From contig JAACVK010000023.1 in the NCBI GenBank assembly GCA_009991595.1, positions 1 to 64,000 on the forward strand: a stretch of 64,000 nt of DNA, given 5' to 3'. The first letter of the stretch is position 1; each line of letters starts with the position of its first letter. Shown in pieces: positions 4,990 to 52,046 of this stretch. This DNA is from a bacterium. Its GTDB lineage: Bacteria; Bdellovibrionota; UBA2428. The notes beneath the pieces were generated by a model. It searched no databases and had not been told where the DNA came from. It worked only from the letters and a program-made list of their open reading frames with translations. The position numbers and the translations under genes are program-made.

Positions 4990-5746
4990 ATTAACCTTAA
5001 TCGCCCTATCTGCAATTCTTTATAGTGGGTGTAAAACTTCTGGCGACTTACGACATCGATCCAACAACGAAGAGCCCGAAGAGATTAAAACCGTTACCAA
5101 CCCGGTCATCCAACCTACCAGTGGAGCTTCTCCAGATTTAGAAAGAGAACTAGCCGTGACCAAAGGTAGGCTTGCCGAAGTAGAAACACTTCGGCAAAGG
5201 GAAAAACAAGCCTATTTAGAACAGATCGCTCAACTTGAAGGCGAGCGAGAAAAGCTGATAGCAGCCGTAACTGAGCTGAAAGGCAAACCCTCAACTACCC
5301 CAGCCCCTACAACGACCAGCGGAAAAGATGGGTTTAAAATTCTTTGGGACGAAGCCTTTGCTCAAATAAAAACAAAAAAATACTCATCCGCCGCAAGCTT
5401 GTTTGAAGAGATAACCAAACGATACCCCTCTCGATCAGGCACCTATTATGCCTATATTGGCATGGCCTTTTCCCTCTACTCTTCTGGCAAATACAAAGAA
5501 GCCGCACTTGGATTTAACGACGCCCTTGATAAATACTCTAAGCATCGCAACCGCTCAATTGCGACATTTGGACTTGGCGTTAGTTTCTCAAAGCTAAATA
5601 AAGCTAAAAACGCCAAGATATTTTACGAAGAGGTTAAAACCGTAGCTCCGAAGTCTGCCCATGGGCAGTTGGCCACAGCCCTACTCGCCGGAAAAGCCAA
5701 AATTCCCCAAGATTTGTTTATAGCTTTGCCCAAGTGGTACCAATAA
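4973..5746 (+). CDS. CpoB/YbgF-like TPR lipoprotein of the Tol-Pal region
   Basis: A 257-residue protein with a short lipoprotein signal (lipobox about YSGC, Cys about residue 20). A charged, Glu-rich coiled coil covers about residues 55-100, followed by a Pro/Thr linker. Three TPR-type helix pairs follow at about 117-230 (DEAFAQIKTKKYSSAASLFE, then AYIGMAFSLYSSGKYKEAAL and so on). This coiled-coil plus TPR layout and the place behind pal match CpoB (YbgF), which coordinates peptidoglycan synthesis with Tol-driven constriction. E. coli CpoB is periplasmic rather than lipidated, so the lipobox is a difference, though lipidated relatives are plausible. It overlaps the preceding gene by 17 bases. 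Confidence 0.75.
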   Translation: MTGLNKLTLIALSAILYSGCKTSGDLRHRSNNEEPEEIKTVTNPVIQPTSGASPDLERELAVTKGRLAEVETLRQREKQAYLEQIAQLEGEREKLIAAVTELKGKPSTTPAPTTTSGKDGFKILWDEAFAQIKTKKYSSAASLFEEITKRYPSRSGTYYAYIGMAFSLYSSGKYKEAALGFNDALDKYSKHRNRSIATFGLGVSFSKLNKAKNAKIFYEEVKTVAPKSAHGQLATALLAGKAKIPQDLFIALPKWYQ

Positions 5747-5787
5747 GACTTCACATCAATAGCTGAATCGGCTACTTTCTCTAAAAA

Positions 5788-6825
5788 ATGAGAAATCTAA
5801 TTCTAGGAGTTGAGTCCTCCTGCGATGATACCTGCCTGGCTCTTGTCGATCAAAACGGAAAAGTCTTGGCAGAAAGTAGCTTTTCACAAACTGCTATCCA
5901 CCAATGCTTTGGTGGTGTTGTTCCTGAAGTGGCCAGTCGATCTCACTTTGAAAGGCTTGAACCGCTTTTTGGAGAGCTCATCTCTCAAGTGATAGACAAG
6001 GGCTCTAGAATTCAATCTGTAGCGGCCAGCTGCACCCCCGGACTAGTAGGCCCCCTGCTTGTCGGAGCTAGTTTTGCAAGAGGACTGGCTCAAGGATGGC
6101 AAATTCCCTTTATAGGCATCCATCATCTAAGGGCCCACGTTGCCTCAATCTTTCTAGAGCGACAAAGTAACAGACCCATGCGCGAACAGCTAGAGGACCT
6201 ATCCGGCTCACTCGTCGTATTAGTTTCCGGAGGTCACACTCAAATACTTCAATTGGGTCCAGAACTTTCCTTAAAAGTTTTGGCCTCTACGGCTGACGAT
6301 GCCGCTGGCGAATGCTTTGATAAAAGTGCAAAGATTATGGGACTACCTTATCCGGGAGGCCCCTCCATTGAAAAACTTGCTCTTAGTTTAAGCGAGGCTG
6401 ATTCGCCTATTGCCTTGAGCATAGCCAACTCACTCCCAAGACCTCGCTCAAAGCTTGGCTTTTCTTTTGCAGGCCTAAAAACAGCCATTAAAATCTTCAT
6501 TGAAAAAAACCCGGACCAACAAAAATCCGCAGCCACCGCTTGGGCCATTCAAGAAGTTATTGGCGACACTATAGTCGCGACGATAAGAAAGACCTTTAAA
6601 GAGAGCAATCTCTCGCCTTCTAATCTTTTTTTCTGCGGCGGGGTTAGCGCAAACACTTCTATTAGAAAAAAACTAGAAGAACTAAGCCAGGAGCTTAACT
6701 GCACGCTTCATGTGCCGCCCGTAAAATTCAGCACAGACAATGCCGCTATGGTGGCTGCCTGCGCGTGGCTTCAGTCTGATAAATTTAACGAGAACACAAT
6801 TACAGCAAGGCAATCTCTAGGGTGA
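5788..6825 (+). CDS. tsaD: TsaD, tRNA N6-threonylcarbamoyladenosine transferase subunit
   Basis: TsaD, with TsaB and TsaE, transfers the threonylcarbamoyl group to A37 of ANN-decoding tRNAs. The 345-residue length is normal for the family. The N-terminus shows the ASKHA-fold signature ILGVESSCDDTCLALVD. The metal-binding H113-x3-H117 motif (GIHHLRAH) is intact, as are the nucleotide-binding VLVSGGHTQI segment, the GECFDKSAKIMGLPYPGGP loop and the FCGGVSAN motif near residue 285. It starts about 40 bases after the CpoB-like gene and overlaps rsmA by 4 bases (GTGA), suggesting translational coupling. Confidence 0.97.
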   Translation: MRNLILGVESSCDDTCLALVDQNGKVLAESSFSQTAIHQCFGGVVPEVASRSHFERLEPLFGELISQVIDKGSRIQSVAASCTPGLVGPLLVGASFARGLAQGWQIPFIGIHHLRAHVASIFLERQSNRPMREQLEDLSGSLVVLVSGGHTQILQLGPELSLKVLASTADDAAGECFDKSAKIMGLPYPGGPSIEKLALSLSEADSPIALSIANSLPRPRSKLGFSFAGLKTAIKIFIEKNPDQQKSAATAWAIQEVIGDTIVATIRKTFKESNLSPSNLFFCGGVSANTSIRKKLEELSQELNCTLHVPPVKFSTDNAAMVAACAWLQSDKFNENTITARQSLG

Positions 6826-7625
6826 GCAACATCGCAAAAAAGCACTTCGGACAGCATTTCCTCAGCAACACCGGGGTTATTGAAAAGATATGCAACCTTT
6901 GCGAGAGAATATCGACTACAGCCTCCCCCTTGCTAGAAATTGGTCCCGGTCAAGGAGCACTTACAGCGGCACTTTTGGCCACCAAACGAAAAGTGATAGC
7001 CTATGAAATCGACTTAGACATGGTGGCTCACCTCCAAAAACGATTTAAAAAAGCAATCGAAGAAGGACAACTAAAGATTATTCAGGGTGACTTTTTAGAT
7101 TCAAACCCTGAGTCACTGCGAACACACTTCAATCGAAACGACGTAACAGCGGTTGGAAACCTACCTTATAACGTTGGGTCCCCGATCACATTCAAACTAT
7201 TAGAAGAACTCGACTTTATTTCTGCGGCTTGTCTCATGCTTCAAAAGGAAGTGGTTCAGAAATTTATAGCTGGGCCCGAAGATAAGAAACATTACGGCCC
7301 TCCCTCCATTAAGATGAAATGGCTGACTCATTATAAAGATCACTTTTGGGTTTCCCCAGGCAGCTTCACCCCTCCTCCCAAAGTTCACAGCGGAGTGTTT
7401 GCCTTCAATAAGAAAGTGGATTCGACAGTTTTTTCCTCACCCATAACAAAAGACCCCTTTTTCAAGCAAGCCTCTCATCTGCTTCATAAGGCCTTTAGTC
7501 AAAGAAGAAAGAAGCTCAGGAATACCCTGGGAGATTCCATTCCTGAGGAGTTTCTTGGGCGGCGTCCAGAGGAACTCAGCCCAGATGACTACTTATGCAT
7601 TGCTAAGTCGATCAAAGCTAGCTAG
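6822..7625 (+). CDS. rsmA: RsmA (KsgA), 16S rRNA adenine dimethyltransferase
   Basis: RsmA dimethylates the two adjacent adenines in the 3' terminal hairpin of 16S rRNA late in small-subunit assembly. The 267-residue protein begins with the family N-terminus KKHFGQHFLSN. It has the SAM-binding motif LEIGPGQGALTAAL (about residues 38-51), the motif II acidic YEID, and the catalytic NLPYNVGSPI (about 112-121). The C-terminal region FSQRRKKLRNTL is also typical. The start is the GTG at 6822, which overlaps the tsaD stop by 4 bases. Confidence 0.97.
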   Translation: MSNIAKKHFGQHFLSNTGVIEKICNLCERISTTASPLLEIGPGQGALTAALLATKRKVIAYEIDLDMVAHLQKRFKKAIEEGQLKIIQGDFLDSNPESLRTHFNRNDVTAVGNLPYNVGSPITFKLLEELDFISAACLMLQKEVVQKFIAGPEDKKHYGPPSIKMKWLTHYKDHFWVSPGSFTPPPKVHSGVFAFNKKVDSTVFSSPITKDPFFKQASHLLHKAFSQRRKKLRNTLGDSIPEEFLGRRPEELSPDDYLCIAKSIKAS

Positions 7626-49791: not shown

Positions 49792-49832
49792 ATTAGGGGC
49801 ATTTTACCCTTTAGAGACATTATGCCCCTAAT
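49792..49832. repeat. Perfect 11-bp inverted repeat between convergent genes
   Basis: ATTAGGGGCAT (49792-49802) and ATGCCCCTAAT (49822-49832) are exact reverse complements with a 19-base loop. The repeat sits between the ends of the arginase-family gene and the lysine-rich gene. No T-tract follows on either strand, so it is not a classical intrinsic terminator. Confidence 0.65.
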
Positions 49833-49878: not shown

Positions 49879-50046
49879 TCAAGTTACAGTTTTGTCTTTC
49901 CTGTTTTTGTTCACAAAAACATCCTTGCCCTCCCTAGCTTGTGAAGCATCCCTCTTGGACTCTTGGGAGGGGGCGCCTTTACCTTCGGTAGATCCTTTTT
50001 TACTTAACTCATCTTTGATTTGGGTTTTCTTAACTTCTTTTTTCAT
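49879..50046 (-). CDS. Lysine-rich 55-aa protein of unknown function
   Basis: A very hydrophilic 55-residue protein (MKKEVKKTQIKDELSKKGST, then more Lys, Ser, Arg and Gln), probably disordered. The start is ATG 50046 with AAAAGGAG upstream; an upstream in-frame start is not needed. Its ATG overlaps the stop of the 27-codon ORF (TAATG), so translation is probably coupled. It is the last gene of a small operon behind the CsbD-like gene. The composition recalls stress or DNA-associated small basic proteins, but no family is recognised. Confidence 0.7.
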   Translation of the reverse strand: MKKEVKKTQIKDELSKKGSTEGKGAPSQESKRDASQAREGKDVFVNKNRKDKTVT

Positions 50047-50129
50047 TAGTGAACTCCTTTTATAGGTAAAATTAGAAACCAAGCTAAATACAGCACCATA
50101 GAATAAAGGAGGTAAAACTCTTTTCTCAT
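50046..50129 (-). CDS. Unannotated 27-aa hydrophobic micro-ORF
   Basis: ATG at 50129-50127 opens a 27-codon frame ending TAA at 50048-50046. The peptide starts MRKEFYLLYSMVLYLAWFLI, a short charged N-terminus and a single hydrophobic helix, like small membrane proteins. A strong Shine-Dalgarno, AAGGAGGT, lies 10 bases upstream. The stop overlaps the next start (TAATG). The Shine-Dalgarno is base-paired with codons 6-8 of this ORF (see hairpin entry). Confidence 0.6.
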   Translation of the reverse strand: MRKEFYLLYSMVLYLAWFLILPIKGVH

Positions 50130-50147
50130 TCAGAGTGATACCTCCTT
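50106..50147 (-). promoter_or_regulatory. Hairpin sequestering the micro-ORF ribosome-binding site
   Basis: AAGGAGGTA and TACCTCCTT are exact 9-bp complements (50106-50114 and 50139-50147), with extra CTC/GAG pairing inside. In the reverse-strand message one arm is the Shine-Dalgarno of the 27-codon ORF and the other lies in its early codons, so the stem would hide the ribosome-binding site and enclose the start codon in the loop. Confidence 0.55.
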
Positions 50148-50154
50148 CAAAGAA

Positions 50155-50343
50155 TTAACTTAATTTTGAAAACTCTTTTTCTATTTCATCTTTAGCAATG
50201 CCGTATTTTTCTTGAACCTTACCTTTAATGTATTCCAAGTTACCTTTTGCAGATTGAAAATCGTCATCGGTCAATTTTCCCCATTTTTCACGAACTTTTC
50301 CCTTAATCTGTTTTAAAGAACCTTTAGCTGTATCTTTGTTCAT
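50155..50343 (-). CDS. CsbD-family small stress protein
   Basis: A 62-residue CsbD-like protein: MNKDTAKGSLKQIKGKVREK matches the family start (GxxKQxKGKVKExWGKLT), and WGKLTDDDFQSAKGNLEYIKGKVQEKYG follows as the second half of the repeat. CsbD genes are induced in general stress in many bacteria; the molecular role is unclear. AAGGAGATC precedes the ATG. It is the first gene of a small reverse operon and has a sigma-54-type promoter 43-60 bases upstream. Confidence 0.92.
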   Translation of the reverse strand: MNKDTAKGSLKQIKGKVREKWGKLTDDDFQSAKGNLEYIKGKVQEKYGIAKDEIEKEFSKLS

Positions 50344-50385
50344 ATGATCTCCTTATAAGCTTTTTTGTTAAAAGCCGTTAAGTAG

Positions 50386-50403
50386 ATGCAAGCCTTGTGC
50401 CAA
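50386..50403 (-). promoter_or_regulatory. Sigma-54 (RpoN) promoter of the CsbD-like operon
   Basis: On the reverse strand, TTGGCACAAGGCTTGCAT. TGGCAC, five bases, and TTGCA match the RpoN -24/-12 consensus with one mismatch (position 7), and GG and GC are exactly 10 bases apart. Transcription would start near 50376, leaving a leader of about 33 bases with a good ribosome-binding site. I see no competing sigma-70 promoter. Confidence 0.7.
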
Positions 50404-50429
50404 CATTAGAAAATAGAAATTCAAAGCGT

Positions 50430-52046
50430 CTAAAAGAACGCTGTCACAATGAAAAGACTTTGGTATTTATCGTACTGAAAAGATTCCTTTACAGAGGAAA
50501 TATTCTTGGTGGCGCTAAACTGCAAACGCGTTTCCCAGCTCTGCCCCCAAACCTTAGATAAAGCAGTCGAAGCAGTAAAGTACCAATCGTTTCTATCTGC
50601 ACTAGAGTCGTTGTAACGACTATTCGAAACTTCGGTGTTGTTCGTCCAATTCAAACCCCAAGTTTGAGGCTTAATCTGCCAATTCCAGACACCCGTTAAA
50701 CCGTACTTGTAATAAGTATTTTCACTTCCCTTTGCCGGATGATATTCCAACAAAGCTCCTGGCCCAAAACTATGATTTGCAACAGCCGTGTAAAGCCAAT
50801 CTACATCTAATGAATAGTTCAATGCTTCGGTATCTTGTGTGCTTGAATAACCCTTTATAGATTCTTGCCGAGCTATACCAAAAGTGGAACTCACCTGGGA
50901 AGTGTTCCCTCCCTGGCCACTGCCTATATTGCGAACCCAACTCAATTCTGCGCCCAAAGTCGCCGCGTAAGCCTCTAATGCTTTAATCTCTCCCAAGAAT
51001 ACATAACTATACTTAAACCCAAGAGACCAAGTGCTCAAAGAAGACTTATCCCAGTTAAATTTAGTGGCAATTTCGTGTGAATGAAGGTCGGAGGTAAGAG
51101 CTATTTTATGGCTCATATAATGAAGGAGAAGAAAGTTATAGGAAATGGTCTGATCAAAGACACTAGAGTAAGGAATTCTATACTCAGCAAAAAGCAGCCC
51201 CAAGTTTGAAAAAGAACTTTCGGCATCCAAAGTTTGACTTGAAGGATCTAATCCTTGAGGCAGCAAAGTTGCATTAGTATCGTGTCCGAGGCCAAACGAT
51301 GCCGCCAGCGTTAATCTTTTCTTGAAGCGCCTATCACGAGCCATCTTAAAGTCTAGAACTGCCAACTTTTTCTTGGCCATTTCCACTAAGGATTTGTCAT
51401 TAGAAAAGTCAGCAACGTCTTGATAACCGGCCTTAGCCTCATTGTAGTTGATTCTATCCTCTTCAATTATCGACAAGTAAAAGCGGGCAGGATCAGAATA
51501 CCTTGGGTGCTGAGCATCCATAAGCGATCTAAATCGAACAGTAGCCTCTTCGTATTCTTTATTTTCTACATTACACAAAGCCAAGTAATAGGTTGAATCA
51601 TCTTTATTCCTAGGAAAACCTTGAGATAAACTAAGATAGCGTTTTGCAGCCTGACACCCCCGCTCGTGAAAGGACGCAATTCCAAAACCCAAATAAGCAT
51701 CGGAGCGCTGCCCTGGACTCAAATACTTTGACTTTTTAACAAGCTCACCAAAGGCACTCAGTGCAACCCTTGACTTCGATCTACCGAGCGCATCCCAACC
51801 AACAGAAAATAGTCGATCAACTCCAGTTTTTCTCTGTAAGCCCTTCGTCTTAGCCAAACTCGTGGTTTGAGAGCCTTGCACAAACTCTTTTGTATTCGCA
51901 GTTGCTGAGGGAGAATTTCTGCGTGCCGGAACAGACTTCAAACGACCGCGTTTTAATCCTTTGGATTGATTAAACTCCACTCCCGAGCTTTGAGAAAATG
52001 AAATCCATGATGAGACCATTATTAAAAACAAAAAACTTCGCTTCAT
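50430..52046 (-). CDS. TPR-containing outer-membrane beta-barrel protein
   Basis: A 538-residue exported protein (signal peptide about residues 1-21). Residues about 75-230 are TPR-like helix pairs (AYLGFGIASFHERGCQAAKRY, YLALCNVENKEYEEATVRF, and a third). Residues about 245-538 are barrel strands with alternating aromatics, ending FIVTAFF with a terminal Phe, the outer-membrane signature. Such TPR-barrel proteins can act as sugar or polymer export channels, but nothing here names the cargo. Its 3' end abuts the sigma-54 promoter region. Confidence 0.75.
   Translation of the reverse strand: MKRSFLFLIMVSSWISFSQSSGVEFNQSKGLKRGRLKSVPARRNSPSATANTKEFVQGSQTTSLAKTKGLQRKTGVDRLFSVGWDALGRSKSRVALSAFGELVKKSKYLSPGQRSDAYLGFGIASFHERGCQAAKRYLSLSQGFPRNKDDSTYYLALCNVENKEYEEATVRFRSLMDAQHPRYSDPARFYLSIIEEDRINYNEAKAGYQDVADFSNDKSLVEMAKKKLAVLDFKMARDRRFKKRLTLAASFGLGHDTNATLLPQGLDPSSQTLDAESSFSNLGLLFAEYRIPYSSVFDQTISYNFLLLHYMSHKIALTSDLHSHEIATKFNWDKSSLSTWSLGFKYSYVFLGEIKALEAYAATLGAELSWVRNIGSGQGGNTSQVSSTFGIARQESIKGYSSTQDTEALNYSLDVDWLYTAVANHSFGPGALLEYHPAKGSENTYYKYGLTGVWNWQIKPQTWGLNWTNNTEVSNSRYNDSSADRNDWYFTASTALSKVWGQSWETRLQFSATKNISSVKESFQYDKYQSLFIVTAFF

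Follow-up and report, generated by a model that had tools for sequence, protein, structure and literature searches.

The csbD gene of the window (the whole stretch of 64,000 nucleotides analysed here) is preceded by a sigma-54 (RpoN) promoter box, and we consider it likely that the gene belongs, as an outlier, to a sigma-54/NtrC-type "general stress" regulon that does the job of sigma-S or sigma-B. Comparative evidence gives strong support to RpoN control of csbD and shows it recurring across the phylum rather than in this genome alone. The regulon reading would explain the odd-looking csbD promoter as a member of a pattern rather than an exception, and it supplies named genes for deletion.

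The near-consensus RpoN promoter named in the preliminary description is indeed present (Table 1). The box, TGGCACAAGGCTTGCA, agrees with the sigma-54 promoter definition TGGCAC-N5-TTGCW, having GG at −24, GC at −12, and strict spacing, and this pattern occurs at 26 sites genome-wide versus 1 for the reversed control. Based on the position of the box, transcription is predicted to start at about 50376 with a leader of ~33 nt, and 43 nt separate the end of the box from the csbD start codon. The CsbD-like gene placed downstream of it proves to be a full-length one, with a Pfam PF05532 match covering profile positions 1–53 of 53 (E = 9.6e-19, 67.5 bits versus a gathering cut-off of 40) and a gene-like codon score reached by 0 of 112 spurious ORFs; its function is assigned by family membership only. 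The RpoN gene is present in the window's genome (hereafter G000) on contig C88 and is nearly universal in the wider set (56 of 59 genomes). Given the 26 versus 1 genome sites, the presence of the RpoN gene, and the correctly spaced boxes before the csbD genes of relatives, the box stands above chance.

Table 1. Coordinates of the features in and around the csbD operon of the window.
Feature	Position	Strand	Remarks
Upstream gene, TPR/beta-barrel-type	50430-52046	minus	closed by terminator-like hairpin
GGGGCA, candidate activator half-site	50542-50547	minus	145 bp upstream of box, in coding end of upstream gene; weak alone
Terminator-like hairpin	50425-50442	minus	end of upstream gene; scan: 1 found versus 0.6 expected, near background
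Sigma-54 promoter box (−24/−12)	50402-50387	minus	TGGCAC-N5-TTGCA
csbD	50155-50343	minus	62 aa, CsbD family PF05532; Pfam match and codon score
Inter-gene RNA hairpin	50104-50149	minus	−22.9 kcal/mol, z = −3.4, 0/200 shuffles as stable
Hydrophobic micro-ORF	50046-50129	minus	27 codons; expression uncertain
Lysine-rich ORF	49879-50046	minus	55 aa, 13 Lys of 55; good Shine-Dalgarno
Inverted repeat	49792-49832	minus	after operon, between convergent genes; z = −2.95

The box scan covered 300 bp upstream of each csbD gene in a set of 108 distinct ones collected across the phylum, with up to 2 mismatches and a spacer of 5 nt. A sigma-54 box is found in this range for 35 of the 108 genes, versus 2–4 at other spacers and 2.0 in shuffles, and between −25 and −125 from the start codon for 29, versus 0–1 at spacers 3, 4, 6, and 7. 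These 29 genes are spread over 9 families, and in the window's family exact boxes occur in all three genomes having csbD (G000, G001, and G002), while 73% of the phylum's csbD genes have no box in the −25 to −125 range. In the outgroup, which comprises 80 other csbD loci (Proteobacteria type), a box is present in 10, fewer than in the phylum (p = 0.002). The preliminary description regarded RpoN control and this gene set as unusual; the RpoN–csbD link stands, but as a recurrent feature of the phylum rather than an isolated one, and the three-gene set does not stand as a conserved unit. Literature searches gave no paper reporting a link between CsbD and sigma-54. Outgroup csbD genes of Arsukibacterium and Rheinheimera (L162, L165, L212, and L224) carry TGGTAC/TGGTAT-N5-TTGCW boxes at −97 to −116, and these four boxes imply that RpoN–csbD may exist outside the phylum, in Gammaproteobacteria. 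At another locus (L010, G024 C2:9193), the csbD start codon lies 12 nt past a sigma-54 box without a Shine-Dalgarno sequence, which suggests a leaderless sigma-54 transcript.

As for gene neighbourhoods, 12 of the 17 box-positive relatives have an NtrC-type response-regulator activator close to csbD, often at a distance below 500 bp, versus 2 of 19 box-negative loci (p = 0.0004, a guide only, since box-positive loci are somewhat longer and not randomly drawn). Recurring neighbours in relatives include DUF1328-type membrane proteins (with their own sigma-54 box), BON, YflT-like, DUF883-like, and Hpt proteins, and small lipoproteins; a large part of these assignments was made by eye from translations, and a subset was checked by Pfam. 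As for DUF1328 genes generally, a sigma-54 box is found for 6 of 30 versus 1–2 at wrong spacers, an association too weak to treat DUF1328 as a general sigma-54 target. DUF892 and YflT were likewise dropped as phylum-wide markers, being too rare (5 and 3 of 144 genomes, respectively).

G000 has 12 sigma-54 activators, and all 12 island activators of relatives match one and the same of them best, namely, C3:13624-15036. Its domains are a receiver, AAA+ (Sigma54_activat), and a Fis-type HTH, the HTH_8 match being weak and below cut-off. A tree was discarded as proof of orthology because of long branches, and it does not settle whether the C3 activator is a true orthologue. The surrounding C3 island has sigma-54 boxes with one mismatch each before a DUF1328-DUF2383-lipoprotein-Dps operon (Dps being a Dps-like ferritin), a pyridine-nucleotide oxidoreductase, a DUF883-like group, and Hpt, the Hpt protein being encoded beside the activator. 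Exact boxes precede the BON-YflT-DUF892 operon on C1 and the operon of a second csbD gene (csbD2) on C40. Regarding sigma factors, three sigma-70-family genes are seen in G000, and no RpoS match over the curated TIGR02394 cut-off is found in 39 genomes (G000 and 38 relatives), although for G000 this absence is not absolute, as the genome is ~90.6% complete. The C40 island (C40:4388-10031, L260) comprises csbD2, a divergent sigma-54 activator (5595-7223), receiver and histidine kinase-like ORFs, and a small DUF883-like pair that has a sigma-54 box to itself. Three further exact boxes, at C35:1505-1520(−), C35:16753-16768(+), and C85:55254-55269(+) (L073, L074, and L080), lie just before ORFs that by eye resemble Y1/REP-associated transposases (HVVNRCIDKDFYPL-type sequence), a kind of gene for which such a promoter is odd.

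Among 6-mers upstream of stress-type promoters, GGGGCA is the most enriched, with 12 occurrences in 30 versus 2.1 expected. In G000 it is present at 4 of 8 stress-type versus 0 of 21 other sigma-54 promoters. GGGGCA together with a box at a set distance has only two genome-wide matches, which both fall in the C3 island. The enrichment suggests that GGGGCA may be the activator's site, enrichment as such being no proof. Of nine independent promoters, only 3 have it, and the window's copy is a single one within coding sequence.

It is highly improbable that the box before the window's csbD is a chance match and that the gene is transcribed from a sigma-70 or upstream promoter. The motif is short and missing from most csbD genes of the phylum; however, the wrong-spacer and shuffle controls, which led us to reject a chance match, are near zero, box positions cluster, and the box is kept in three genera of the family. 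In addition, the best sigma-70-like match near csbD does not exceed background, and a terminator-like hairpin lies upstream. As for the activator, csbD might be sigma-54-driven by a different one, e.g., the C40 gene that divergently adjoins the csbD2 operon, which would mean at least two independent circuits instead of one stress regulon. We regard this as rather unlikely. It agrees with the presence of 12 activators in G000 and with the fact that BON, Hpt, and some other stress-type promoters are without GGGGCA, but the csbD-near activators of relatives all match the C3 gene best and not the C40 gene, and both G000 csbD promoters carry GGGGCA.

In the favoured single stress regulon, a stress or starvation signal would pass through a phosphorelay, involving the Hpt protein encoded beside the activator, to the NtrC-type response regulator of C3. 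The activator would then bind upstream sites (candidate GGGGCA) and open RNA polymerase with sigma-54 at csbD, as well as at the DUF1328-DUF2383-lipoprotein-Dps, DUF883-like, BON-YflT-DUF892, and csbD2 operons, and the small CsbD protein would accumulate and act protectively, as it does in bacteria that use sigma-S or sigma-B. A wider proposal is plausible but falls somewhat short of probable: the phylum would lack RpoS-type control and conduct its general stress response via RpoN, an Hpt phosphorelay would feed a dedicated NtrC-type response regulator, and csbD would belong to the core of this conserved regulon. The general stress responses known so far are mostly controlled by sigma-S, sigma-B, or EcfG. 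If the proposal is true, the phylum would represent a further solution, in which sigma-54 and an enhancer-binding response regulator control these gene families by a very different logic, with little leak without the activator. Since sigma-54 requires an ATP-driven activator, such control would be tight and signal-gated, unlike that of the RpoS regulon.

The E. coli RpoS regulon includes yjbJ (csbD family), elaB/yqjD, dps, osmY/BON, and yciFE (DUF892). Its gene families thus overlap with those found here, whereas no RpoS exceeds the curated cut-off in the genomes searched. E. coli YjbJ and ElaB are abundant in stationary phase and under salt and other stresses (PMC11282234). YflT, CsbD, and a bacterioferritin depend on SigB in B. 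cereus (PMC9912610). The kinds of targets are alike in the Bacillus SigB general stress regulon (CsbD, YflT, and ferritin-like proteins), but here they come with −24/−12 sigma-54 boxes and an NtrC-type activator. In comparison with NtrC-family activators (AtoC, NtrC, ZraR, and FlgR), the C3 protein shares the receiver, Sigma54_activat, and a weak Fis-type HTH match, but it scores far under every named equivalog cut-off among those listed, and it is encoded among stress-type genes and an Hpt gene. For Bdellovibrio, an RpoN-like factor, bd0843 (PMC3464611), and sigma-28 as the attack-phase regulator (PMC3627812) have been described, and none of the Bdellovibrio papers found connects RpoN with stress genes.

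The two small ORFs described after csbD, one hydrophobic and one lysine-rich, are both present on the minus strand, and their stop-start overlap is also confirmed: in the shared TAATG the ATG of the lysine-rich ORF overlaps the micro-ORF stop by 1 nt. The micro-ORF, MRKEFYLLYSMVLYLAWFLILPIKGVH, starts 25 nt past the csbD stop and has a weakly gene-like codon score (1.1% of spurious ORFs score as high). The lysine-rich ORF has the Shine-Dalgarno sequence AAAAGGAG and a gene-like score (0 of 112 as high); it is probably co-transcribed with csbD and may be translationally coupled to the micro-ORF. The strong inter-gene hairpin, AAGGAGGT...ACCTCCTT, has the micro-ORF Shine-Dalgarno in its stem and the micro-ORF ATG in its loop, gives no Rfam match, and may be a 3'-end or coupling element.

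The claim that the three genes form a system fares less well. Profile searches give no family match for the micro-ORF, and the lysine-rich protein has neither a family match nor relatives among 59 genomes of the phylum or in the GTDB scan; its best candidate relative in the 59 genomes (E = 0.08) was dismissed as being without support. The three-gene order is not kept in related genomes, where neither small ORF is found behind csbD, a result valid at family distance only, since the comparison contains no same-genus genome. The three-gene system is unproven and not supported as a conserved one. There is an appreciable chance, not far below even, that the micro-ORF is untranslated, the hairpin being an mRNA 3' end or stability element, and that the lysine-rich ORF is lowly expressed or species-specific. 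Such an arrangement fits the stability of the hairpin, the position of the micro-ORF Shine-Dalgarno inside the stem, and the absence of relatives for either ORF, but not the TAATG coupling, the good Shine-Dalgarno of the lysine-rich ORF, and the gene-like codon scores. It appears decidedly doubtful that the three genes make up a dedicated module, with the membrane peptide and lysine-rich protein working alongside CsbD at the membrane. A short ORF does follow closely in 10 of the 29 sigma-54-driven csbD genes, and 7 of those 10 look membrane-bound or exported, so that a small protein of this type recurs in relatives; however, these followers are from different families, and none is related to either ORF of the window.

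The inverted repeat TTAGGGGCAT...ATGCCCCTAA likely marks the transcript end. Within it lies GGGGCAT-N19-ATGCCCC (49796-49828), the sole such repeat in the genome, which holds the candidate activator half-site on both strands.
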